Source: a virus. From it: a stretch of DNA of 22,146 bases. Below, piece after piece: positions 1,636-17,236 of this stretch. Location of the stretch: positions 1 through 22,146 of IMG/VR virus record IMGVR_UViG_3300005613_000443; one strand, given 5' to 3'. The position numbers and the translations under genes are program-made. How positions within the stretch are numbered: the first letter of the stretch is position 1; each line of letters opens with the position of its first letter. The notes below the pieces were generated by a model that worked only from the letters and a program-made list of their open reading frames with translations, searched no databases and was not told the origin of the DNA.

Positions 1636-1998
1636 ATGGTTTTTAAAAAGGGTCAATCTGGTAATCCAAAGGGAAGGCAAAAAAAACCACCGGAAATTGC
1701 TTTTGCACAAAAGCTTTCACGGGAGTTTGTCCAATTGAGGTTAACACATTTTCTTAGGTTACCTCTCGATGAGTTACAGGATGTTCTGAAGGACAAAAAG
1801 CGCGAATCCGTTGACCATTTCATAGCCAGAATAATAGTTATGGGCATTCTAAAGGGTGACCACATTAGGCTTAACTTTATGTTTGATCGGTTAATTGGTA
1901 AAGTGACCGACAAGGTGGAGATCAGCAAACCGGAGCCGTTTATCATCGAAGGTGTCAACGGTGAGAGGATCGAGATGGGTGTTAAGGATTTAAAATAA
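1636..1998 (+). CDS. Small terminase-like DUF5681 protein
   Basis: The 120-residue protein opens with FKKGQSGNPKGR (residues 3-14), the signature of the DUF5681 domain found in phage proteins next to packaging genes. A charged helical middle follows, then MFDRLIGKVTDKVE, a pattern common near the C-terminus of such small-terminase candidates. Small terminase subunits bind the phage packaging site as a ring and load the DNA onto the large subunit. It is the first gene of the rightward operon, with AAGGG eight bases before the ATG. The family assignment is good. The small-terminase role is inferred from the domain, the size and the position upstream of the large terminase, and three genes intervene before that gene. 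Confidence 0.7.
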   Translation: MVFKKGQSGNPKGRQKKPPEIAFAQKLSREFVQLRLTHFLRLPLDELQDVLKDKKRESVDHFIARIIVMGILKGDHIRLNFMFDRLIGKVTDKVEISKPEPFIIEGVNGERIEMGVKDLK

Positions 1999-2009: not shown

Positions 2010-3251
2010 ATGAGTTATCATATTGCAGATATGGAGCATAATAAGTTTACGCACCTTAGGGAAAACGTCACAGCCGTTAACATGGTGCCAGCGGATTCGC
2101 CAGCATCGGATGCTTTTTCGAGGTTGAGGGTGTCTAGTCCTCTAACGGTTTTTGATAATTTTGAGACTACGGTACAAAAAACTTATGCCTGGTCAGAAGC
2201 AACATCTGGCGGTGCATCTATTGCTTATGTCTCTAACACAGCAGCCACAAAGTTTGAAACATCTGCAGCGAGTGGAGATAAGGCGACAAGGTCCAGCAAA
2301 AAACTTTGCGAATATGTTCCAGGCACATCGCTATTAATTTTAAATACTGGTGTTTTGGGTGCTGGTGCTGCTAATTCACATCAACGGATTGGCCTTTTTG
2401 ACGATCAAAATGGTGTGTTTTTTGATCAGGTAGATGGTGTTTTGGGTGTCACTATTCGCTCATACACTACAGGAACAGCAGTTGACACGCACATCACCCA
2501 GGCATCCTGGAACATTGACAAAATGGATGGTACTGGCGTTAGTGGTATAACGATTGATACCACTAAAACCAACATATTCATCATAGACCTTCAGTGGCTT
2601 GGTGTTGGTCGGGTAAGGTTTGGTTTCGACATCGATGGTATGATTTTTTGGTGCCATGAGGTTAACAATGCCAATACTCGAAATGTGGTTTATATGTCTA
2701 CACCGAGACTACCGATCAGATACGAAGTTGAAAACACAGGTGCTTCATCTGCTCTAAATGATTTCAGACAAATTTGTTCTACAGCCATTGCCGAGGGTGT
2801 TTTTGGTAGCAATTATTTCCCAAGATCGATCAACAACGGAGTTACCCCGATAGATACATCAACAACAAAGAAACCGCTAATTTCGATGCAATTGAAATCG
2901 GCATTTGTCAACAAAGCGAACATCAGAATTACAAATGTATCCCCATCATCGACATCTAAAAGCGAAACATTGTTTGAGGTTTATCTAAATCCTACACTTA
3001 CAGGAGCATCTTTCGCTGATGTTGATGGGATCGCTCAACGGGATGTAACAGCATCAGCTGTGACGGGTGGGACCAGGATCGCTTCTTTTTATGCTACAGA
3101 TGCAACAAAAGCACCATTAGCGGCTTTTAAAAATCAGTTTGTACTGGGATCAGATCTAGCTGGTACATCGGATATTTTTACCGTCACGGCTCAAACAATA
3201 ACTGGGACAGATACATCATTGTGTGCTGTTGATTACGACGAACTATATTGA
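2010..3251 (+). CDS. Putative virion structural protein (beta-rich)
   Basis: This 413-residue protein contains SDAFSRLRVSSPLTVFDNFE near residues 33-52, a motif resembling the DAFGRLRVSxPxTLFD start seen in many phage structural proteins. The rest is rich in Ser, Thr, Gly and Ala with alternating hydrophobic residues, as expected for a beta-sandwich virion protein. It has no signal peptide, membrane segment or catalytic motif. AAGGT lies upstream of the ATG. Its place between the small and large terminase genes is unusual for a major virion component. It could be a head fibre, decoration or tail-associated protein, and I cannot decide between these. Confidence 0.55.
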   Translation: MSYHIADMEHNKFTHLRENVTAVNMVPADSPASDAFSRLRVSSPLTVFDNFETTVQKTYAWSEATSGGASIAYVSNTAATKFETSAASGDKATRSSKKLCEYVPGTSLLILNTGVLGAGAANSHQRIGLFDDQNGVFFDQVDGVLGVTIRSYTTGTAVDTHITQASWNIDKMDGTGVSGITIDTTKTNIFIIDLQWLGVGRVRFGFDIDGMIFWCHEVNNANTRNVVYMSTPRLPIRYEVENTGASSALNDFRQICSTAIAEGVFGSNYFPRSINNGVTPIDTSTTKKPLISMQLKSAFVNKANIRITNVSPSSTSKSETLFEVYLNPTLTGASFADVDGIAQRDVTASAVTGGTRIASFYATDATKAPLAAFKNQFVLGSDLAGTSDIFTVTAQTITGTDTSLCAVDYDELY

Positions 3252-3259
3252 GAGTGGAA

Positions 3260-3703
3260 ATGTTAGATAACCCAATTATCAAACCGATAAAATCATCTGG
3301 GCATTTTTTTGAGCTAATGGAACAATATGATTTTTATTTTAGCTTACCTGGTCAGTGGTCAAACAATTTCTATCTTGTCATACAAAAGGGTTATCGGTTT
3401 GATGGTGCGTCTATACCGAGTGCGTTGTGGGGGTTCCCGTTGATGTTGTCACCAGTTCACCCAAGGATTGTCCTTGGATCTATGATTCATGACCTATGCT
3501 ATGAAACAAAAGGTCACATCAATAAATCTGAGGATGCTACCCTTTACCAAAAGTCTCAAAGCGGCACATGGTATAAGTCTTATGCACCAATATCAAAAAA
3601 GGATGCCGACCTTCTTTTTTTGAGTATCAACAAACAAATGAACATGGATATAATTAGACGTAATCTTACATATTATGCAGTTAGATTTTTTGGAAGGTAT
3701 TAA
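3260..3703 (+). CDS. DUF1353 family protein
   Basis: The protein shows the DUF1353 core: GYRFDGASIPSALWGF, then SPVHPRIVLGSMIHDLCYE, then a conserved Asp-Ala-Asp-Leu-Leu-Phe segment (KKDADLLFLSI) and a C-terminal YYAVRFFGRY. DUF1353 proteins of about 100-150 residues are frequent in phages, often beside lysis or tail genes, and their biochemical role is not settled. The frame opens at a TTG (3248) that overlaps the previous stop. I prefer the ATG at 3260 because GAGAG sits at the right distance before it. The gene is followed directly, without a gap, by the NeuB-family gene. Confidence 0.8.
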   Translation: MLDNPIIKPIKSSGHFFELMEQYDFYFSLPGQWSNNFYLVIQKGYRFDGASIPSALWGFPLMLSPVHPRIVLGSMIHDLCYETKGHINKSEDATLYQKSQSGTWYKSYAPISKKDADLLFLSINKQMNMDIIRRNLTYYAVRFFGRY

Positions 3704-4624
3704 ATGAAAGTTGTATTAGATGTCGGTAGTAATTTTGACAACTACACAGATTGTGTAGAATCATGCAAAAAAGCAAAGCAACTTGGAGCTCAAGCAATAA
3801 AGTTCCAATGTTTTACGAGTGAAGATTTATATGGTTTCAAAGAGTTTGTAAAAAACGGAATCCCAAAACAATGGGTGCCTGGTTTGGCTGGTGTATGTCG
3901 TGACGAACAAATAGAGTTTATGTGCTCTGTTTTTAATAAAGACTTAGTATCGTTTATAGATCCTTATGTCACTACACACAAAGTAGCATCGTCTGAGTGC
4001 CGTAACAAAGATTTGCTGATGGAAATAAAGAAAACCCAAAAGCCGGTTTACTTGTCAATTGGCGGCTCAACATTTGAGAACATACAAAAGGCTCTGGCTA
4101 TTCTTGGCAAAGACAAGACAACCATTCTTTATTGTGTTGTTGATTATCCATCCAGAACACATGCTTTGGTTAACATCCCAAATCTAAGAAAGCGCTACAA
4201 TGTAGATGTTGGCTATTCCGACCATTCTCTCGATATTTATGAGGCTCCAATGTCAGCTAAAAGGCATGGTGCGACAGTTTTGGAAAAGCATTTCAAAATT
4301 AGAGATTTTGACAGCACAGACAACAATCATGCTCTAAATTTGATTGAAACAATGGCGATGATTGATCATTTAAATACATTATCTCAAGAGTTCAAAACGC
4401 ACACAGAAATAAACAATGCTTATGCTATTACAAGGCGATGCGTAGCTACTGAGTTAATTGAGATAGGCGACGAATTGATACTGAACAAAAACTATGGGCA
4501 TTACCGAGGATCACCAGATCTTAGGATGTCTGTAAGAAAAGCGACAGATCCACATGGTCACAAAGCACTAAGGGTTATCTATAAAGGCGAGGAAATCGTA
4601 AGAAAAGATTACAAACAAGAATGA
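3704..4624 (+). CDS. NeuB-family nonulosonic acid synthase (sialic/legionaminic/pseudaminic type)
   Basis: NeuB enzymes condense phosphoenolpyruvate with a six-carbon N-acetyl-hexosamine derivative to make nine-carbon acidic sugars. The N-terminal TIM-barrel region is recognisable by AIKFQCF (Lys33, Gln35), HKVASSE (Lys93, Glu98), ILYCVVDYPS (Tyr148), GYSDHS (Ser172-His174) and VLEKHF (Glu194, His196). A C-terminal SAF/antifreeze-like domain (about 243-303) contains RRCVATELIEIGDELIL and GEEIVRKD. At 306 residues it is shorter than the usual ~340. The N-terminal acidic residue that is Glu in AEIGxNH-type enzymes is Asp6 here (LDVGSN), and the Asn usually found just before the YP motif is replaced. 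The gene abuts DUF1353 on the left (TAA then ATG) and overlaps the large terminase by ATGA, so it is part of the late operon. The family is clear. The exact sugar product cannot be read. Confidence 0.85.
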   Translation: MKVVLDVGSNFDNYTDCVESCKKAKQLGAQAIKFQCFTSEDLYGFKEFVKNGIPKQWVPGLAGVCRDEQIEFMCSVFNKDLVSFIDPYVTTHKVASSECRNKDLLMEIKKTQKPVYLSIGGSTFENIQKALAILGKDKTTILYCVVDYPSRTHALVNIPNLRKRYNVDVGYSDHSLDIYEAPMSAKRHGATVLEKHFKIRDFDSTDNNHALNLIETMAMIDHLNTLSQEFKTHTEINNAYAITRRCVATELIEIGDELILNKNYGHYRGSPDLRMSVRKATDPHGHKALRVIYKGEEIVRKDYKQE

Positions 4625-5925
4625 AATTTAAACCACATTCCGAAAAGCAAAACAGAATTATCTTTTCTGAGAAAAAGATTACGATTGCGGCAACAGGTAT
4701 CCAATTTGGAAAAACGTTGTCTGGAGTGGTGTGGCTCAAAAAGTACATGCATAGGCACACGTCAAAAGACGATAACTTTATTATCACAACACCAACGTAC
4801 AAGATTCTAAAACAGGCTACCTTACCACCGTTTATGAAACTTAATGATGGCTTGGGTAGACTTAACAAGGCCGACATGTGCTTCGAAATGCACGCTGGTG
4901 GGAATGTTTGGATCAGGTCCGGCCAAAATCCTGATTCGGTGGTGGGTATCACTAATGTGAGAGCCATATTATGCGATGAGGGAGGCCTTTATTCAAGGTA
5001 TTTCTGGGATAATATCCAGGCCAGGAGTTCTTTTTCATCATGTCCGGTTTGTATCGTAACATCACCGTACTCGTTAAACTGGCTTTATACCGATTTTATT
5101 CGGAAAATACAGCAAAAAGATCCATACATTATGGAGATGTGCGAATATGTCCAGGCAGCGAGTTACGAAAACCCATATTTTCCTAAAGCAGAATATGATG
5201 AAAGAAAACTGACCATGGACAGTCACCGTTTTTCGATGATTTACGGTGGTAACTTTGGCCGAATGGAAGGTTTGGTTTACAAATGTTTCGATGACGATGT
5301 CGATGTCATTGATCCAATACCGTTGCCGCCAGAGACCAAGTTTTATGGTGGGATAGATTGGGGGTACACTGATCCAATGGTCATTACTATCCGAGCAGTT
5401 CTACCATCTGGTTATCAATATCAGATTGCTGAGTATTACAAAACTCAGCAAACGATACGAGATGTGATCGAGATGGCAAAGTCTTATAATTCGATTTACA
5501 AAAAAGTCATATTTGTTTGCGATCCAAGCCGGCCAGAATATATCCAAGAGCTCAATGCCAACGGCATTATTGCTTATCCTGCTCGTAATGATATTAGGCT
5601 CGGAATCGACTACCACTATGATTTAATTGCAAATAAAAAGTACAAAGTTTTTAGAAATACTTCTCCGCACACAATAGACGAATATTCGCAGTACCATTAT
5701 CCTGAGCCTAAAAATCTTAAGCCCGATCAAGGGCAAAAAGATATGTTGCCGGTAGACATTCAAAATCATTGCATGGACAGCAACAGATATATTACTATGG
5801 CTACATATAACTTTGCAGGACACAAGAAAAAGATTATAATAAAAGATCATAACGTGAAAGAGGCATTGCCTTATTTAATAGATCCAGAACAAGAAAAGCT
5901 ATTTAAAAAAAGACGACTTGCATAA
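4621..5925 (+). CDS. terL: Terminase large subunit
   Basis: This is the packaging motor ATPase/nuclease. Residues 24-32 (ATGIQFGKT) form the Walker A loop, residues 116-120 (ILCDE) the Walker B motif with its catalytic Glu, and CIVTSPY at 144-150 fits the ATPase coupling motif. The RNase H-like nuclease domain follows with Asp246 in YGGIDWGYTDP, Asp301 in FVCDPSRPE and Asp386 in NHCMDSNRY as the likely metal-binding acids. At 434 residues it is complete and of normal size. The start overlaps the NeuB-family stop in ATGA. The family resembles the large terminases of headful-packaging podoviruses, but the packaging mode cannot be proved from sequence alone. Confidence 0.95.
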   Translation: MKFKPHSEKQNRIIFSEKKITIAATGIQFGKTLSGVVWLKKYMHRHTSKDDNFIITTPTYKILKQATLPPFMKLNDGLGRLNKADMCFEMHAGGNVWIRSGQNPDSVVGITNVRAILCDEGGLYSRYFWDNIQARSSFSSCPVCIVTSPYSLNWLYTDFIRKIQQKDPYIMEMCEYVQAASYENPYFPKAEYDERKLTMDSHRFSMIYGGNFGRMEGLVYKCFDDDVDVIDPIPLPPETKFYGGIDWGYTDPMVITIRAVLPSGYQYQIAEYYKTQQTIRDVIEMAKSYNSIYKKVIFVCDPSRPEYIQELNANGIIAYPARNDIRLGIDYHYDLIANKKYKVFRNTSPHTIDEYSQYHYPEPKNLKPDQGQKDMLPVDIQNHCMDSNRYITMATYNFAGHKKKIIIKDHNVKEALPYLIDPEQEKLFKKRRLA

Positions 5926-5934
5926 GGTGATAAA

Positions 5935-6303
5935 ATGCCACGTTACTGTTATCGGTGTCCTTCTTGTAACCAAGAGTTTGAGATCATAAAACGAATTGTC
6001 GATGTCGATAACATCGAACATTGTTCTTTTTGTTCTTCAGATTGCAAACCACAAGATCGACTTATTTCCACACCAGCGTTACACAACACAGCCGTGGAAT
6101 CACCAGAATATGATCCAGGCCTTGGAATGGTTATCAAATCGAGTGCTCACAGGCGACAGATCGCCAAAGAGCGAGGCCTTGAGGAAATTGGTAACGAATC
6201 ACCGGATAAGATCCATAAATACTATGCGGATCAAATAAAAGAAAAACGGTTAAATCGATATAAAAAACTATGCGAGCCGATTGAATTGAGGACAAGCAGA
6301 TGA
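5935..6303 (+). CDS. FmdB-type zinc-ribbon protein
   Basis: The N-terminus MPRYCYRCPSCNQEFEI and a second pair in HCSFCSSDC (about residues 29-37) give the two Cys-x2-Cys knuckles of the FmdB-like zinc ribbon. The C-terminal half is basic and helical (AHRRQIAKERGLEEIGN and following), with the conserved-looking stretch EYDPGLGMVIKS before it. Proteins of this layout commonly sit between the terminase and portal genes of podovirus-like environmental phages. A role at the packaging or portal-assembly step is possible but unproved. AAGGTGATAAA precedes the ATG, and the stop overlaps the portal start by ATGA. Confidence 0.8.
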   Translation: MPRYCYRCPSCNQEFEIIKRIVDVDNIEHCSFCSSDCKPQDRLISTPALHNTAVESPEYDPGLGMVIKSSAHRRQIAKERGLEEIGNESPDKIHKYYADQIKEKRLNRYKKLCEPIELRTSR

Positions 6304-8114
6304 AAGAGTTAATGGGTGGTTATGACCTTCTGCCGGAAAGCCAAATTGACGGTGCTAACATTGATCAATCTGATGAGGACCAACAAACGGTTAAGGCTCT
6401 TTTGTCTGACTTTTTCAAATGGAAGGCTCACCGAGAGAAGTATTCCAAGCATTGGCTCGATTACTATAAATTTATGCGTGGATCTCAGTGGGACACGCAA
6501 AGGCCGTCTTGGCGAAACTCTGAGGTAGTAAACTTGATTTGGTCAACAATTCAAGGTCAAATCCCGTTACAGACAGATGTAAGGCCAAAGTTTACATTTT
6601 TGCCACAAGATCCAGAGGACATGCTTTTTAGCCAGATTTTGGAAAAAGTGGCTGATTCTGAATGGGAAAAATACAATTGGCTAAGGGTTGTTTTCGAAGT
6701 AATATTTGATGGTTATATCTATGGCACTGGGTTTAGTTCCATGAACTATGATCCAGAGATTGATTTCGGGATTGGTGCAGCGGTTTATAAATCTGAAGAT
6801 CCCTACCACTGTTATCCCGATCCTGATTGCAATGATGTTAACGACAGCCTGTCGAGAGGTTTTTGGTATGTTCGGCCAATGACTACATCCAGGCTCAAGC
6901 AAAAGTATCCAAAGTTTGCTAGTAAGCTTAAGGGTGACGTTAACGATTTTATCTCTGACGAGAAAACAAATATCAAAACAGACATGCAATCGTCTTACAT
7001 GAATACCGACAGGAACATGCCAGAGGCACAATCTAGGTATCAGATGTATGGCGATTGTAAGATTGAAAAGACTTTAGTTTTTACTGGATATCTCAAGCCT
7101 AGCGATTTTGAAGAAATCGAGGAAGAGAATGAGGGTAAAAAGTCTTACACAATAAAGAAAAAATATCCTGATGGCCGTTATGTTGTTATAGCTAATGGCC
7201 TACTTCTAGAGGATGGACCTTTGCCTTACGAGGATGGTCTAATTCCTTTTTCGCGCTACTGCAATTACATACTGCCAAGAGAGTTTTTTGGTGTGAGTGA
7301 AATTGAGCAGCTTAAGCCTTCACAAGTAGTTTTTAATAAGATCCTAGCCTTTACGTTAGATTCCTTGGCGCTTATGGGTAATCCCATTTGGGTTTCTGAC
7401 GATCCCAATTTAGACATCGACAATCTTACCAATAGGCCTGGCATGGTTGTGCCAAAGACACCAGGCTCCACAGTTTCCAGGGAAATGGGTGTACCATTAA
7501 ATCCTGGCTTCATGCAGATCTTAGATAGATTAGTTGGTTGGTTTAATGACCAAGCCGGACAAAGCGAATTTTCTAGAGGTAACACAGAGGGTGCGGTTAC
7601 AGCAGCGTCAGCAATTGAACAACTTATATCTGCTTCACGGACCAGAATAAGGCAAAAGCAGCGTAACCTAGATGAGTACCTAAAAACGGTTGGTTGGCAA
7701 TATGCTAATCGAGTTTTTGAGTTTTACACCGTTCCAAAGATCTACAGGATCACTAATAGTGATGGGTCCGATCTTTACATGAAAATGCATGTTGAAAATC
7801 AAGAGGGTGAAAATGGCGAGGTAGCTAGGGTAGCTAGAATTACAGAATACCAAAATAATGGAAAGGGTGGTTTGATTCCGAGAAAAGAAGAAAGCCTTAT
7901 TATCAAGGGTAATTTCGACATAAGGGTGAAAACAGGATCGGACTTACCATTCGAGGCGGCCGATAAGGAAAGAAAATCTCTGGCATTATTTGACCGAGGG
8001 ATTATTGATGAAGAAGAGGTTTTGGATCAAATAAACATGCCGAACAAAGACAAGATATTACAAAGGTTGGCAGAGCGCCAACAGATGATGGCTCAACAAC
8101 AACAACAGGGGTAA
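6300..8114 (+). CDS. Portal protein (P22-like)
   Basis: The 604-residue protein has the size and layout of P22-type portals. A helical N-terminus with KHWLDYYKFMRGSQWD is followed by VVNLIWSTIQGQIPLQTDVR (about 76-95), DGYIYGTGFSSMNYDPE, EDPYHCYPDPDC and PFSRYCNYILPREFFGVSEI, and by a later helix-rich region containing AASAIEQLISASRTRIRQKQ. These are typical of portal stem, clip and wing sequence. The C-terminus is Gln-rich (MMAQQQQQG). Portals form the dodecameric ring at the capsid vertex through which DNA enters and leaves. The gene lies directly after the terminase and zinc-ribbon genes and overlaps the latter by four bases. Confidence 0.9.
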   Translation: MKELMGGYDLLPESQIDGANIDQSDEDQQTVKALLSDFFKWKAHREKYSKHWLDYYKFMRGSQWDTQRPSWRNSEVVNLIWSTIQGQIPLQTDVRPKFTFLPQDPEDMLFSQILEKVADSEWEKYNWLRVVFEVIFDGYIYGTGFSSMNYDPEIDFGIGAAVYKSEDPYHCYPDPDCNDVNDSLSRGFWYVRPMTTSRLKQKYPKFASKLKGDVNDFISDEKTNIKTDMQSSYMNTDRNMPEAQSRYQMYGDCKIEKTLVFTGYLKPSDFEEIEEENEGKKSYTIKKKYPDGRYVVIANGLLLEDGPLPYEDGLIPFSRYCNYILPREFFGVSEIEQLKPSQVVFNKILAFTLDSLALMGNPIWVSDDPNLDIDNLTNRPGMVVPKTPGSTVSREMGVPLNPGFMQILDRLVGWFNDQAGQSEFSRGNTEGAVTAASAIEQLISASRTRIRQKQRNLDEYLKTVGWQYANRVFEFYTVPKIYRITNSDGSDLYMKMHVENQEGENGEVARVARITEYQNNGKGGLIPRKEESLIIKGNFDIRVKTGSDLPFEAADKERKSLALFDRGIIDEEEVLDQINMPNKDKILQRLAERQQMMAQQQQQG

Positions 8115-8117
8115 GTT

Positions 8118-8423
8118 ATGGCAGAGATGATGCCACAAGGGCAACAGATGCAAGGACAAGGCCAGGAACAACAGATGCAAGGACAAGGCCAGGAGCAGGA
8201 GCCGAGCCAGGTCGGAATGATCATTGAAACAGTAGGGCAGGGACTTACGGCTTTAAACGATGGTTTGGCGCAATCTAATGCTCCTGATGAGGCAAAGCAG
8301 TTAATCGCTCAAGCGCTAGAATCTTTTCTTGGCGTTGTCGAAATAATGGGTGGTGGAGGTGCTCCTGGTGGTGGGCAACAAATGCCACAAGGTCAGCAGG
8401 AACAAAATCAGCAAGTATTATAA
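8118..8423 (+). CDS. Gln/Gly-rich small protein between portal and scaffold
   Basis: The 101-residue product has a low-complexity N-terminus made of a duplicated nine-residue unit (QQMQGQGQE), a helical middle (VGMIIETVGQGLTALNDGLA, then PDEAKQLIAQALESFLGVVE), and a Gly/Gln-rich tail. It begins three bases after the portal stop with AGGGG upstream. Small proteins of this kind often sit between portal and scaffold genes, and a scaffold-assisting or minor head role is conceivable. No family is recognised. Its Gln-rich ends echo the Gln-rich C-terminus of the portal just upstream. Confidence 0.7.
   Translation: MAEMMPQGQQMQGQGQEQQMQGQGQEQEPSQVGMIIETVGQGLTALNDGLAQSNAPDEAKQLIAQALESFLGVVEIMGGGGAPGGGQQMPQGQQEQNQQVL
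8142..8195 (+). repeat. Two tandem 27-base repeats in Gln/Gly-rich gene
   Basis: The unit at 8142-8168 recurs at 8169-8195 with one base changed, adding nine residues (QQMQGQGQE type) in frame. The near identity indicates a recent duplication. Confidence 0.85.
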
Positions 8424-8439
8424 TAAGGATATATAATAT

Positions 8440-9300
8440 ATGGAAGATTATGGACTTAATGAAAGCATGTTGCAAGAAGCGCCACAAGAAACTCAAACAC
8501 AAGATGTTGTGCAAAGTGATTCTCCTGTTGAATCTAAGCCAGATGATCAATTGTTTGAGTATCAGGTTAATGGCAAAACAGTAAAAGAAGATTTAAATAC
8601 TATTCTGAAACGCGCGGGCATGGGTTATAATTACGCGCAGCACATGAGTGAGTTTAAGCAAAAGCAAACTGAGCTAGAAGCAAGGATGCAACAGGCTCAG
8701 GAGCTAGAAAGTCAATGGAAGCCATATCATCAGTATGCGCAAGAGAATCCTGAGTGGGCAAGCCATTGGAAAAGCGCTTACGAAAATCGGTTTAACTCGT
8801 TTGACGGCCAACAAACGCAGCAACCATTTTCTGGGCAGCAAACGACAGAGCCAAACAACGAGTTGATGACATTAAAAAATGAGTTTTTAGAGTTAAAAAA
8901 GGCTTATGATAATGATCGTCAAACGAGGATGGTTCAAGAGCAGGATTTAGAGCTCAATAACCAAATTAACGAGGTTAAAAAGCAATATCCTGACATTGAT
9001 TTTACTTACACCGATCCAAGCACTGGCAAATCTTTGGAGTATCAAGTCTTAGAACATGGTTCTACACATGGGATCAATAGTTTTAAGGCAGCGTTCCGAG
9101 ATTTTTACCATGATCAGCTAGTAAGTTTAGCAGCATCTAAAGCCAAAGAGGCAGCGGCAAAAGAGTTGCAGCAGCGTCAACAAAAGGGGTTTATGTCAAC
9201 TAGCGACACACCACAATTAGTGACAAAAGGTTCGAAGGGGAGTTTAAAAAACATGTCCTACGAGCAGTTAATTGCCGAAGGATGGAACAACCAAGGCTAA
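8440..9300 (+). CDS. Scaffolding protein
   Basis: A 286-residue, acidic, strongly helical protein placed directly before the major capsid gene, the usual place for a scaffold. Its N-terminus is disordered and acidic. It is followed by a segment FEYQVNGKTVKEDLNTILKR, coiled-coil-like stretches (QKQTELEARMQQAQELESQW and a second near residues 145-180) and a C-terminal basic tail (KGSKGSLKNMSYEQLIAEGW). Scaffold C-terminal basic helices typically bind coat protein. AAGGA precedes the ATG. The function is inferred from layout and composition rather than from a single diagnostic motif. Confidence 0.8.
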   Translation: MEDYGLNESMLQEAPQETQTQDVVQSDSPVESKPDDQLFEYQVNGKTVKEDLNTILKRAGMGYNYAQHMSEFKQKQTELEARMQQAQELESQWKPYHQYAQENPEWASHWKSAYENRFNSFDGQQTQQPFSGQQTTEPNNELMTLKNEFLELKKAYDNDRQTRMVQEQDLELNNQINEVKKQYPDIDFTYTDPSTGKSLEYQVLEHGSTHGINSFKAAFRDFYHDQLVSLAASKAKEAAAKELQQRQQKGFMSTSDTPQLVTKGSKGSLKNMSYEQLIAEGWNNQG

Positions 9301-9311
9301 TGAGGTGACTT

Positions 9312-10232
9312 ATGTCTTTAACAGATCAATTAACAAGTATTACAAGAAACTATATTCAGCCAAAGATGTATGACAACATCTTTGATTCTAATCCACTACT
9401 TTCTAAATTTAAGAGCTCCGGCCGATACATTTCTCAAAATGGTGGAACAACTATCGACATACCATTAAACTATGCCCAAACTTCAAGTGCTGGTTGGTTT
9501 TCTGGTAGCGATACTTTGACAACAGCTGATAACGAAAACATTACCAGGGCATCTTTTGCTTGGAAATCTGCTTATGCCGCTATTACGGTAGCAGAGGAAG
9601 ACAAGCTTAAAAACGCAGGTGATCTTGGTGTTATCAAGCTTTTGGCATCTAAGGCCATGATCGCGGAAAAAACGCTGGCTGATATTATCGGCACTGGTCT
9701 TTTTTCTGATGGCACGACAGCCAAAAGTATCGTTGGCTTGAGGGATATCGTCGCTACAGATCAAACTGTTGGTGGGATTTCTCAATCAACATCATCCTGG
9801 TGGGCATCAAATGTCGATTCAACAACTACGACTTTGAGCATTTCAGCAATGAATACTCAATTTCAAAACGCTACAATTGGCGCAGATTCTCCTGACATGT
9901 GCGTTACGACAAGAGCAGTTTATAATCTCTTTTATAACCTTTTACAGCCACAGCAACGGTTTCTAGATAAGGATATGGCAAAAGCCGGCTTTACGTCTTT
10001 GATGTTCAACAGCGCTCCTATTGTGATTGACAGCCATTGTCCTGCAAATCACATGTTCATGCTCAATATGAAATATCTTGGACTTTATTATCATCCTGAT
10101 AGAAACATGAGTGCTAGTGAGTACCAAAAGCCAATCAACCAAGAGGTTTTGACTTCTCGGATTCTTTGGATGGGTGCTTTAACATCATCCAACAACAGGA
10201 TGCATGCATTGTTGTCAGGTATTACAGCGTAA
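9312..10232 (+). CDS. Major capsid protein (HK97-fold type)
   Basis: A 306-residue protein with the sequence features of phage coat proteins of this group. The N-terminus has QPKMYDNIFDSNPLLSKFKS and a Gly-Gly-x-x-Ile stretch (NGGTTIDIPLNYAQT). The pattern AAITVAEEDKLKNAGDLGVI and KAMIAEKTLADIIGTGLFSD corresponds to the spine-helix region, and CVTTRAVYNLFYNLLQPQQR lies in the later domain. It follows the scaffold gene with a strong GAGGTGA ribosome-binding site, consistent with high expression. No long N-terminal delta domain is seen, in line with a separate scaffold. Confidence 0.9.
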   Translation: MSLTDQLTSITRNYIQPKMYDNIFDSNPLLSKFKSSGRYISQNGGTTIDIPLNYAQTSSAGWFSGSDTLTTADNENITRASFAWKSAYAAITVAEEDKLKNAGDLGVIKLLASKAMIAEKTLADIIGTGLFSDGTTAKSIVGLRDIVATDQTVGGISQSTSSWWASNVDSTTTTLSISAMNTQFQNATIGADSPDMCVTTRAVYNLFYNLLQPQQRFLDKDMAKAGFTSLMFNSAPIVIDSHCPANHMFMLNMKYLGLYYHPDRNMSASEYQKPINQEVLTSRILWMGALTSSNNRMHALLSGITA

Positions 10233-10247
10233 CTTTTGGAGGTTTTT

Positions 10248-10718
10248 ATGAGTTTTCAATCAGCTGATCCCGTATTATTTTACGGAAAATCACATGTAAC
10301 CGCTTCTTTGGGATCTAACCATCCAGAGGTTGGGACATTAGTAACTTTTGAGGATGGCAATACTTATCGTTGGGTTTATAATGAGAGTGGCACACAAATA
10401 AGCCCGACCTATGCTGTACAGGTCAATAGTGCTGCAACCGGTTATTCTGTAACTGTGACAAACGCCACAAACACAGGTAAAGCTATTGGTGTTGTGAAAC
10501 ATGCCACACTTACGACAGCTACCTATGGTTGGGTTTTGACACAAGGTTTTGGCACCATTGAAATGGGTGCTAATAATAGTGCTGCTGTTCGAGCTAACAT
10601 TTATGTTGGTGCTGATGGCACAGGTGCTGGCGCTGCAGCTAGTGAGCATCCTTACGCAACAATTGTAAGTGCTGCCGCTAGCGGAGCATCTGCTGGCGCG
10701 TACGTTTCTTGTTATTAA
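10248..10718 (+). CDS. Putative head decoration protein
   Basis: The 156-residue product is rich in Ala, Gly, Ser, Thr and Val and shows the beta-strand patterning of capsid decoration proteins (for example GTLVTFEDGNTYRWVYNESG and GWVLTQGFGTIEMGA). It lies directly after the major capsid gene. I place the start at ATG 10248, five bases after GGAGG. A TTG at 10236 is in frame but would include that ribosome-binding site. The many exposed Ser/Thr residues make it a possible glycosylation acceptor for the Maf-type protein encoded next, but that is inference. Confidence 0.7.
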   Translation: MSFQSADPVLFYGKSHVTASLGSNHPEVGTLVTFEDGNTYRWVYNESGTQISPTYAVQVNSAATGYSVTVTNATNTGKAIGVVKHATLTTATYGWVLTQGFGTIEMGANNSAAVRANIYVGADGTGAGAAASEHPYATIVSAAASGASAGAYVSCY

Positions 10719-10742
10719 AATTTTGAAAAAGGTGATTAGATT

Positions 10743-11765
10743 ATGCAAAAGATTAGAGAAGTAGTATTAGATTTACAGCCATACATTAATAGTGCTCCAA
10801 TCTCTCCTGGTGCGGCACACCAACAAGCATGTACCAATGATGAGGTCACTATTAACAGATGGCGTGATCAATGGATTTCTCAAGTTAAATCTAATCACCA
10901 AACTTATGGTCCCTTCTCGGCTAAGTCGGTGGGAAATTTACATGGTTCATTTGGTGGTGCGCCATGTGTTATTGTCGGGTCGGGACCATCCCTTTCTGAA
11001 AACGCTAAGCTTTTAAAAGATAAGCCGGATGATTTAAAGGTCGTTTCCTGTCTTCATAACTTCCATTATTTGGAGGATCTTGGTGTTGATGTTGACTTCT
11101 ATGTGACCTTGGATGCCGGTGAATTGACGATTGGCGAGGTTTCGGAGGGTGGGACAAAGAGTGATGATGAGTATTGGGATCGGACAAAAACAAAAAAGCT
11201 TTTGGCCTTCATTGGTACTCATCCAGAGCTCTTAAAAAGATGGCAAGGTGAGATCTATTTTTATAATGCTCCTGTTCCCGATGATAGCTACACTAAAGCC
11301 GTTGATAAAATAGAGCCCTTTAACATTTATATCGAATCTGGCGGTAATGTTCTTGGTGCCAGCATGATGCTGGTTAAAGGTATCCTAGGTAGTCAGATCT
11401 CCATTTTTATTGGTGCTGACTTTTCCTTTTCGGACAAACCCAAGACAGCATTCCATGCGTGGGATTCGAAATATGATAAGGATCTTGGGAATTACATAAG
11501 GGTGCCTTCGATTTATGGCCATACATTAAAAACATGGCAATCTTATTATAATTTCAAGTTATGGTTTGATGTTGTAGCCCAGAGGGTGCCAGGCATTTAC
11601 ATTAATGCGACAGAAAATGGTTGTTTTGGTGCTTACAAAGAGGGGAACATTTGCCACGTTAGGCAGATGACTTTAAAATCAGCAATAGATCTTTTTTCTA
11701 TACACAAAATTAAAGCAGGTGTTTGCAAAGATCCTACAATAGAAAAAAGAATTATTTTAATTTGA
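10743..11765 (+). CDS. DUF115/Maf-family protein (putative nonulosonic acid glycosyltransferase)
   Basis: The central region has the DUF115 (MAF_flag10) signature: PCVIVGSGPSL at 74-84, DFYVTLDAG at 118-126, a helical ESGGNVLGASMMLVKGILG leading into IFIGADFSF at about 198-229, and INATENGCFGAYKEG at 287-301, resembling the family's NATEGG motif. Motility accessory factors of this family attach pseudaminic or legionaminic acid to Ser/Thr of flagellin. Other members are pterin kinases (MptE-like), so the activity is not certain. The gene sits between capsid/decoration genes and small virion genes, not near flagellar genes. The presence of a NeuB-family gene in the same operon favours a nonulosonic acid role. 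At 340 residues it is shorter than typical bacterial Maf proteins and has no large extra domains. Confidence 0.75.
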   Translation: MQKIREVVLDLQPYINSAPISPGAAHQQACTNDEVTINRWRDQWISQVKSNHQTYGPFSAKSVGNLHGSFGGAPCVIVGSGPSLSENAKLLKDKPDDLKVVSCLHNFHYLEDLGVDVDFYVTLDAGELTIGEVSEGGTKSDDEYWDRTKTKKLLAFIGTHPELLKRWQGEIYFYNAPVPDDSYTKAVDKIEPFNIYIESGGNVLGASMMLVKGILGSQISIFIGADFSFSDKPKTAFHAWDSKYDKDLGNYIRVPSIYGHTLKTWQSYYNFKLWFDVVAQRVPGIYINATENGCFGAYKEGNICHVRQMTLKSAIDLFSIHKIKAGVCKDPTIEKRIILI

Positions 11766-11773
11766 GGTAAAAA

Positions 11774-12043
11774 ATGGCTTACACGACTAGTAATTTAGTT
11801 AAAACAGTTTTTGGCGACCAAAGGGTTTTTGCTTTAAGAGTTACAGCGGATGCAGCTACTGGTGCTGTTGCTACTGGCTTATCGCACATCAATACGGCAT
11901 CTTTGTTGCCACAATCGTTATCTACTGCAGCAGTTAAGTTTTCGATCAATGAAAATTGTTCTGGTGTTGCAGCGTTGGGAACAATCGGGGTTTCAGGTGC
12001 TGCAAGCGGAGACGAATTTATTTTAACCGTTTTTGGGAAATAA
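11774..12043 (+). CDS. Small virion-associated protein (89 residues)
   Basis: The protein begins MAYTTSNLVKTVFGDQRVFA and continues as a short beta-rich, Ala/Ser/Thr-rich sequence ending EFILTVFGK. Small proteins with this MAYTTSNLxKTVFGD start are common in phage structural regions and probably belong to the virion, perhaps decorating the head. GAGGT overlaps the end of the previous gene as the ribosome-binding site. No catalytic motif is visible. The exact location in the particle is unknown. Confidence 0.7.
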   Translation: MAYTTSNLVKTVFGDQRVFALRVTADAATGAVATGLSHINTASLLPQSLSTAAVKFSINENCSGVAALGTIGVSGAASGDEFILTVFGK

Positions 12044-16223: not shown

Positions 16224-17236
16224 TGGCTGGAGCATTAGAAAGAAGATTTCAATTGGCACAATCGCAGTTAAAGCGGCAAGAATCAGGAAGGCGGTTAGAA
16301 GAGGAAAGGGCATTGAAACGCCATTTTGCACAAGCAGGAGCGATTGGTTCAGGTGCGATGTTAAAGGTTGGAGAGCAGCAGCGCGCCAAGTCTGCTGAGA
16401 GACTACAATCTGGAATGTTAGGCCTACAGGCAGAAAAACTAGGGCAACAATACCAAGAGGAACAGGCTGAAAAGCAGCGAGGTTTTATAACCAGTGAACG
16501 GCTCGGTAGCCAAGAGTTTGGCGCTGGTGAGGCGCAAAAGCAGCGAGGTTTTACTGCTGGTGAGGCGCAAAAGCAGCGAGGTTTTATAACTAGTGAACGG
16601 CTCGGTAGCCAAGAGTTTGGCGCTGGTGAGGCGCAAAAGCAGCGAGGTTTTATAACTAGTGAACGGCTCGGTAGCCAGAAATATTCGACTGCAGAAAGAG
16701 AAGCGGCTCAGAAATTTGCTCGTGGAGAAAGGTTGTCGGCACAAGAATATAATACTCTCGAAAGACTTGGCACCCAGGATTTTCAAAACTTGCAACGAGA
16801 AGAATCTCAGAAGTTTGCTACGCGTGAACGTGTTGGTAGTCAAAATTTTGCATCTGGTGAACGGGTAAAATCTGAAGCCTTTCAAAAAGGATTGTTTGAA
16901 ATAGAACAAGAATTTAAAGAAAAAGAGTTTGAGATAAATAAATATATAACTCTTGAAAACTTAAACATGGCTAGACGGAACATGGGTTTAGATCCTGTGG
17001 CTGGACTTCCTGGTGATGAAATCAAAGCACCAGGGCAACCAAGCCCAGAGCCAAGAGACTTTCCTACTTTAGAGGGCATTAGTACAGATGAAATTCGCAG
17101 GATAGCTACAGGTTATCAGCCAAGGAATCCAGCTACTAATAAAAGGATTGTAAATCTCGGTGGTAAAGCACAACAAATATCTACTGATGAATACAACGAA
17201 ATCTTAAGAAGATATAACGAAATGCCTTTTAAATAG
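16223..17236 (+). CDS. Coiled-coil internal virion/ejection protein with 11-residue repeats
   Basis: The 337-residue protein is Glu-, Gln- and Arg-rich and almost wholly helical up to about residue 240. Residues 84-237 can be laid out as fourteen 11-residue repeats with the loose form x-S-Q-x-F-x-x-x-E-R-x (for example GSQEFGAGEAQ, KQRGFITSERL, GTQDFQNLQRE). Such hendecads favour long, slightly right-handed coiled coils. The C-terminus is proline-rich then polar. A small glycine-containing segment (HFAQAGAIGSGAMLKVGEQQ) lies near residues 34-53. Position between the nozzle and the ejection-type genes suggests an internal virion protein that leaves with the DNA. No enzyme motif is seen. Confidence 0.65.
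   Translation: MAGALERRFQLAQSQLKRQESGRRLEEERALKRHFAQAGAIGSGAMLKVGEQQRAKSAERLQSGMLGLQAEKLGQQYQEEQAEKQRGFITSERLGSQEFGAGEAQKQRGFTAGEAQKQRGFITSERLGSQEFGAGEAQKQRGFITSERLGSQKYSTAEREAAQKFARGERLSAQEYNTLERLGTQDFQNLQREESQKFATRERVGSQNFASGERVKSEAFQKGLFEIEQEFKEKEFEINKYITLENLNMARRNMGLDPVAGLPGDEIKAPGQPSPEPRDFPTLEGISTDEIRRIATGYQPRNPATNKRIVNLGGKAQQISTDEYNEILRRYNEMPFK
16471..16677 (+). repeat. 66- and 33-base tandem repeats coding hendecads
   Basis: Units begin at 16471 (66 bases), 16537 (33 bases), 16570 (66 bases) and 16636 (42 bases before divergence). The 66-base copies are nearly identical. All lengths are multiples of 33, so copy changes keep the 11-residue register. Confidence 0.85.

Follow-up and report, generated by a model that had tools for sequence, protein, structure and literature searches.

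Most known cases of sialic-acid-like sugars attached to proteins come from cell surfaces and flagella. The closest described systems are the Maf flagellin O-glycosylation islands of Campylobacter, Clostridium, Aeromonas and Magnetospirillum, where genes of the PseB, PseH, PseI/NeuB and CMP (cytidine monophosphate)-synthetase types accompany a transferase of the PF01973 (DUF115) family that is encoded beside its likely acceptor and modifies it in the cytoplasm before assembly. A comparable gene set is described here for a viral stretch of 22,146 nucleotides (IMG/VR record IMGVR_UViG_3300005613_000443, referred to as the window), whose packaging and head operon contains a NeuB-family synthase gene and a DUF115 gene. 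The phage set has the same types of pathway genes and a PF01973 transferase next to a candidate acceptor, which would likewise be modified in the cytoplasm. It differs from the flagellin islands in that the phage genes sit in a virion operon, the DUF115 protein is a single central domain (340 amino acids versus ca. 600–700), PseG is missing (0 of 31 records), and a decoration protein of the capsid takes the place of flagellin as candidate acceptor; no PseC-type gene turned up, no search aimed at the PseC family having been made.

Two other systems invite comparison. The legionaminic acid pathway of the Bacillus subtilis sps genes (PMC7439481) also has a NeuB-type synthase (SpsE) and an SpsF-type cytidylyltransferase, and its product covers a shell made of protein (the spore crust); unlike the phage set, it is cellular, possesses SpsG, and has no Maf/DUF115 protein described. 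Sugar activation is encoded in phage genomes by auxiliary sugar-nucleotide genes as well, e.g., in a marine virus with Gmd, WcaG, ManC, NeuA, KdsA and WaaG (PMC5332604). Such genes are usually scattered and are read as serving lipopolysaccharide (LPS) or capsule modification, whereas the set described here is near universal in its lineage and tied to a Maf-like transferase of the head operon. A literature search of open-licence papers, bioRxiv preprints excluded, did not turn up any previous description of a phage system of this kind.

We think it probable that a system of the flagellin-glycosylation type acts on the phage's own virion, and that most of a CMP-nonulosonic acid pathway belongs, with a Maf-like transferase, to the core genes of the phage. 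A sequence-only reading of the window had proposed a phage-borne nonulosonic acid route with its transferase in the head operon; that reading is supported in part, and its central idea holds in view of the gene families, their co-occurrence in relatives and a fold nearer to Maf.

Gene order and the sugar cassette in relatives

Similarity searches of IMG/VR retrieved 5 NeuB, 25 DUF115 and 21 MCP (major capsid protein) loci, and a search with a DUF115 profile retrieved at least 127 loci. Profiles were prepared from 21 contigs and then used to compare gene order across 40 contigs. The order was constant: TerS, (a virion protein), NeuB, TerL, a zinc ribbon protein, portal, scaffold, MCP, decoration protein and DUF115, followed by tail genes, the fibre, a small membrane protein and five genes designated PSEB, GFO, CMPS, AT3 and PSEH. 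The same arrangement recurs across ca. 40 contigs from many metagenomes whose GC content ranges from 37 to 66%. With loci picked by DUF115 or MCP and not by NeuB (a few contigs count as two loci), NeuB was found directly upstream of terL in 41 of the 43 testable loci, and DUF115 after MCP in 68 of 68. Out of 17 long contigs picked by DUF115, 15 contained NeuB, 13 a CMP synthetase and 14 a PseB-like gene. The co-occurrence in relatives that the sequence-only reading had suggested looking for is thus near universal. In two distant MCP relatives (G040 and G043), NeuB, DUF115, CMP synthetase and PseB were not found.

The PSEB-GFO-CMPS-AT3-PSEH cassette is present in 22 of the 23 contigs that extend 6 kb or more beyond the tail fibre, and three further contigs hold it at their start. 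GFO was undetected in one cassette contig (G044), and PSEB is relocated beside TerS and NeuB in two (G014 and G057). The closest long relative of the window (G007; DUF115 76% identical) carries the cassette at its positions 23060–27271, beginning 2.1 kb after the fibre-gene start; the window stops 0.7 kb into the fibre gene. The sequence-only reading noted that NeuA was absent from the window and left activation of the sugar to the host or to a gene elsewhere. There is indeed no CTP_transf_3 gene in the 22,146-base contig, which ends just before the site of the synthetase in relatives, and the search outside the window yielded an SpsF-type CMP-sugar synthetase in the relatives' cassette; a gene elsewhere is therefore the option that stood. 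A lone pair of NeuB and DUF115, with the window alone as proof, was rejected, since the relatives reveal the cassette.

PSEB matches PF02719 (E 5e-67), has PseB as its best NCBIfam model and Helicobacter pylori FlaA1/PseB as its best structure (2gn4, E 9e-41), and keeps the catalytic TDK...Y...K motif. CMPS, the SpsF-type synthetase, belongs to PF02348; its best structural match is the cytidylyltransferase 6oew (E 3e-30), with KdsB ranking lower. For PSEH, a GNAT acetyltransferase, PseH ranks first among the NCBIfam models; AT3 is a class-III aminotransferase whose pyridoxal phosphate (PLP) lysine is present in 25 of 26 sequences, and GFO is a short Gfo/Idh-like protein. Relatives therefore hold the pathway set of 4,6-dehydratase, acetyltransferase, synthase and CMP synthetase, with a class-III enzyme as candidate for the aminotransferase step. 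DUF115 is the only transferase candidate seen, given that 29 contigs yielded no GT2 glycosyltransferase. At the level of sequence, the gene families, conservation and linkage of these enzymes are well supported.

Cellular counterparts of the cassette point in the same direction. The four best cellular AT3 relatives (from Colwellia, Endozoicomonas, Undibacterium and Aeromonas) sit in islands with PSEB, CMPS and NEUB. In the Aeromonas locus the order is PseB, PseC, an aldo-keto reductase, an SpsF-type synthetase, AT3, PseG, PseH and NeuB, followed on the opposite strand by a 697-amino-acid Maf and flagellar genes (PseC, PseG, the reductase and the flagellar genes were identified by eye from the sequences). 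Over 233 columns, this Maf can be aligned to the DUF115 profile of the phages (E 1e-5). Judged by these loci, the nearest cellular aminotransferases belong to pse/flagellin-glycosylation islands.

Transferase, synthase and candidate acceptor

The DUF115 protein of the window (340 amino acids) matches PF01973 with 71 bits (Pfam cut-off 34.6; E 1e-19), in agreement with the family call of the sequence-only reading, which had also considered that the protein might belong to the MptE pterin kinase branch. An AlphaFold2 model of the protein (pLDDT 87.6) was searched against PDB. The best match was Maf (5mu5, E 3e-10), followed by HPPK/MptE (8sd5, 1e-4) and the human sialyltransferase ST8SiaIII (9e-4); a profile search of PDB with DUF115 retrieved 5mu5 and did not retrieve MptE. 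We conclude that assignment as a Maf-like glycosyltransferase, with a predicted fold far closer to Maf than to MptE, is well supported. Its predicted activity would be the transfer of CMP-nonulosonic acid to Ser/Thr. The GSGPS and LDAG residues of DUF115 are invariant. The fold is also common to viral proteins in BFVD that are annotated as MptE-like or DUF115, namely A0A6J5PG89 and A0A0F7L3H2 of uncultured Caudovirales (ca. 15–16% identity, no linked sugar pathway recorded) and A0A5B8IGA8 of Mimiviridae ChoanoV1, the whole range being ca. 11–16% identity. These proteins may be misnamed Maf-like transferases.

The gene directly preceding DUF115 adjoins MCP, and its start was corrected from a TTG at 10236 to an ATG at 10248, which has GGAGG upstream. 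An AlphaFold2 model of its product (pLDDT 75.5, medium confidence) is all-beta and most closely resembles the head-fibre base of phi29 (6qyy, E 8e-5), together with decoration proteins from Pam3, HFTV1, T1 and TW1 (PDB matches 8hdt, 8qsy, 9kzj and 5wk1). The protein is thus predicted to fold like a capsid decoration protein, and by analogy with Maf encoded beside flagellin it is our best guess for the leading acceptor candidate.

NeuB of the window (306 amino acids) matches PF03102 with 147 bits (Pfam cut-off 22.1; E 7.2e-43) over positions 52–235 of 241, i.e., over the TIM barrel, and its PDB relatives include B. subtilis SpsE (1vli, 4e-21) and the pseudaminic acid synthase 8h2c. The NeuB call of the earlier reading was therefore sound, as were the ATGA overlap with terL (4621–4624) and the common direction of NeuB and DUF115 with terL, portal, scaffold, MCP and tail genes. 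A Shine–Dalgarno-like GGAAGG is located upstream of NeuB. The catalytic Lys (KFQ) and two metal-type His residues (SDH, EKH) are kept in 36 of 36 phage NeuBs, and the N-terminal EIGxNH-type motif is changed to E/DxGSNW/F. The SAF domain (PF08666) that the earlier reading expected was not matched by Pfam; alignment reveals a SAF-like C-terminal segment with a conserved Arg in 34 of 36 sequences. This part is shortened or missing in G003–G005, G009, G014 and G030. Scores against the PseI and NnaB equivalog models (TIGR03586 and TIGR03569) were 112 and 122 bits, below the cut-offs of 340 and 400. PHROGs contains no family for NeuB and none for DUF115. In one relative (G047, positions 2–1546, locus L210), an uninterrupted reading frame spans both f38, which is a virion structural protein, and NeuB, so that virion protein and synthase may be naturally fused.

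Since congruence with TerL alone was not decisive, we calculated partial correlations of divergence, with TerL, portal, one tail protein and the difference in GC as controls (22–32 contigs; p values uncorrected for multiple tests). The four top partners of DUF115 among 17 genes were CMPS (0.39), PSEH (0.35), NEUB (0.28) and AT3 (0.19), and the values for its neighbours DECO (decoration protein) and MCP were 0.08 and 0.05. NEUB correlated with AT3 (0.62) and CMPS (0.47), which are 15–20 kb away, and also with the tail protein TAILNOZ (0.40) and f14 (0.28); its values for MCP and portal were −0.18 and −0.08. Among the best partners of MCP are portal and further virion genes. The co-divergence of the sugar genes with DUF115 is not seen for PSEB and GFO. 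This pattern, correlational as it is, fits a donor pathway matched to its transferase.

In a phylogenetic tree, the 36 phage NeuBs fall outside a clade of 25 cellular NeuBs with 100/100 support (a small reference set), consistent with a single old origin. Among the closest resolvable relatives of the window, the ratio of nonsynonymous to synonymous substitutions (dN/dS) was ca. 0.06–0.14 for NeuB and 0.04–0.07 for DUF115, values that indicate purifying selection on both genes. One contig, G045 (loci L206/L207), has lost NeuB, PseB, GFO, the synthetase and the acetyltransferase together and retains an AT3 relic without the PLP lysine. This joint loss marks the sugar genes as one functional unit.

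The window and its lineage

The window is one truncated viral contig, whose right end falls inside the tail-fibre gene. All of its genes listed here point in one direction: DUF5681, virion protein, DUF1353, NeuB, TerL, zinc ribbon, portal, scaffold, MCP, small protein, DUF115, small tail/head genes and fibre (Table 1). A family search with f13, the gene that follows DUF115, gave no match.

Table 1. Features of the 22,146-nucleotide window.
Feature	Position	Strand	Basis
Small terminase-like gene (DUF5681), opens packaging block	1636–1998	+	PF18932 E 1e-9; upstream of NeuB/terL in relatives too
Virion structural protein	2010–3251	+	phrog_1645 E 1e-87
DUF1353 protein	3248–3703	+	phrog_1158, annotated as tail assembly chaperone
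NeuB-family nonulosonic acid synthase	3704–4624	+	PF03102
Terminase large subunit (TerL)	4621–5925	+	phrog_2 E 1e-32
Portal protein, P22/SU10 type	6300–8114	+	PF16510 E 5e-29
Scaffold-like protein, ahead of MCP	8440–9300	+	Conserved family and position
Major capsid protein (MCP)	9312–10232	+	phrog_9953 E 3e-64
Predicted surface-exposed capsid decoration protein	10248–10718	+	Fold matches of AlphaFold2 model
Predicted Maf-like (DUF115/PF01973) glycosyltransferase	10743–11765	+	PF01973; fold match to Maf
f13, small virion-operon gene	11774–12043	+	Conserved synteny
Tail-fibre gene, cut by contig end	21402–22146	+	phrog_28766 E 3e-10

The source lineage consists of P22/SU10-like tailed phages with genomes of ca. 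35–40 kb. Named phages provided no usable match for DUF115 or the CMP synthetase, two weak matches (28–29%) for NeuB, and at most ca. 25% identity for TerL and ca. 33% for MCP; no DUF115 relative, whether of prophage or host, was found in 84,980 cellular species genomes. We therefore regard the lineage as uncultured and assign it no host. Some of its members may be temperate, as integrases were detected in 6 of 29 contigs. A relative without NeuB (G059, loci L234/L235) bears a tyrosine integrase.

Two repeats were noticed in the window. Positions 1–430 hold a low-complexity array with periods of 6, 12 and 18 bases (TGGCTN/GGCGAT), which is Gly/Asp-rich in one frame and leaves several frames open on both strands. 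Positions 16470–16652 hold a 99-base tandem repeat (98% match) within a Gln/Arg/Glu-rich virion-operon protein.

Readings of the gene set

Virion glycosylation is the most likely use of the gene set. In the proposed mechanism, for which we infer the catalytic activities, the exact sugar and the virion acceptor, the PseB-like 4,6-dehydratase, the Gfo/Idh protein, the class-III aminotransferase and the PseH-like acetyltransferase would make a 6-deoxy amino-sugar precursor late in infection. NeuB, produced with the terminase, would condense it to a nine-carbon acid, which the SpsF-type synthetase would activate with CMP. DUF115, produced beside the capsid and decoration proteins, would then attach the sugar to Ser/Thr residues of a virion protein. 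This would take place in the cytoplasm, either ahead of assembly or in the course of it, in the way that Maf modifies flagellin.

Several observations weigh against this reading. The window's own contig stops short of the cassette. NeuB, PseB and PseH miss the NCBIfam equivalog cut-offs, and the exact sugar chemistry is left loose for that reason; PseG was absent from the records searched, and its step may come from the host. The DUF115 protein is devoid of the N- and C-terminal domains of Maf (340 amino acids versus 666 in 5mu5), which is why it is named Maf-like and not a full Maf, and identity is only ca. 15%. The correlation of DUF115 with DECO is not significant (p 0.24) and lends no specific support to DECO as the acceptor. 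Finally, DUF115 is intact in G045 despite the loss of the sugar pathway, so it is not strictly dependent on that pathway; this suggests that it can use another donor. CbMaf is donor-promiscuous, accepting N-acetylneuraminic acid (Neu5Ac) and 3-deoxy-D-manno-octulosonic acid (KDO) (PMC11339370).

Alternatively, DUF115 or an enzyme of the host might, in late infection, attach the sugar to the flagellin, LPS or capsule of the host, e.g., to block superinfection or the binding of progeny to debris. The known Maf acceptor, flagellin, is a host protein (PMC11339370), sugar-nucleotide genes of marine phages are commonly read as acting on LPS or capsule (the six such genes of the virus mentioned above include NeuA and KdsA; PMC5332604), and the retention of DUF115 by G045 agrees with such a role. 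However, essentially every member has both transferase and synthase fixed within its late virion operon, the 29 contigs are free of GT2 glycosyltransferases, and the scarcity of integrases means that lasting lysogen conversion is not the general case. We consider modification of the host surface unlikely, and less likely than virion glycosylation. Somewhat more doubtful still is that virions receive another activated keto-sugar acid and not a canonical nonulosonic acid. A NeuB that scores under all NCBIfam synthase cut-offs, lies outside the cellular clade and has an altered EIGxNH-type motif would agree with such a product, as would the missing PseG and the presence of a class-III aminotransferase and a Gfo/Idh-type protein; yet the core NeuB residues are retained, and the phages combine enzymes of the PseB, PseH, NeuB and CMP-synthetase types, just as the pse islands of cells do.

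It is very improbable that DUF115 is an MptE-type pterin kinase incidentally paired with NeuB as an unrelated auxiliary gene: PF01973 does carry the name MptE-like and HPPK is the second fold match, but Maf matches far better in fold, the profile search of PDB retrieved Maf and not MptE, the divergence of DUF115 follows that of the sugar genes, and their co-occurrence is near universal. The window and its relatives are all metagenomic contigs, which might raise the question of host contamination or chimeric assembly. The chance of either is negligible, since repeated independent assemblies refute it: the order recurs across metagenomes of widely differing GC content, with the genes interleaved with terL, portal and MCP.

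Returning to virion glycosylation, the broader proposition is that, for the whole lineage, nonulosonic-acid glycosylation of the phage's own capsid is a core function, carried out by a co-opted flagellin system with a single-domain Maf and a decoration protein as acceptor, and resulting in a charged sugar coat whose dedicated enzymes have their genes in the packaging and head operon and next to the tail fibre; we judge the case for this to be evenly balanced. If true, it would show that a dedicated, charged coat of sugar can be part of how phage particles are made, the genes for its synthesis and transfer counting among the core functions of the virion. This would bear on adsorption, on evasion of host or predator recognition and on immunity to phages, as well as on mass-spectrometric searches, which miss glycopeptides. 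Glyco-engineering would also gain minimal Maf-like transferases (340 amino acids) whose donor pathways co-evolve with them.

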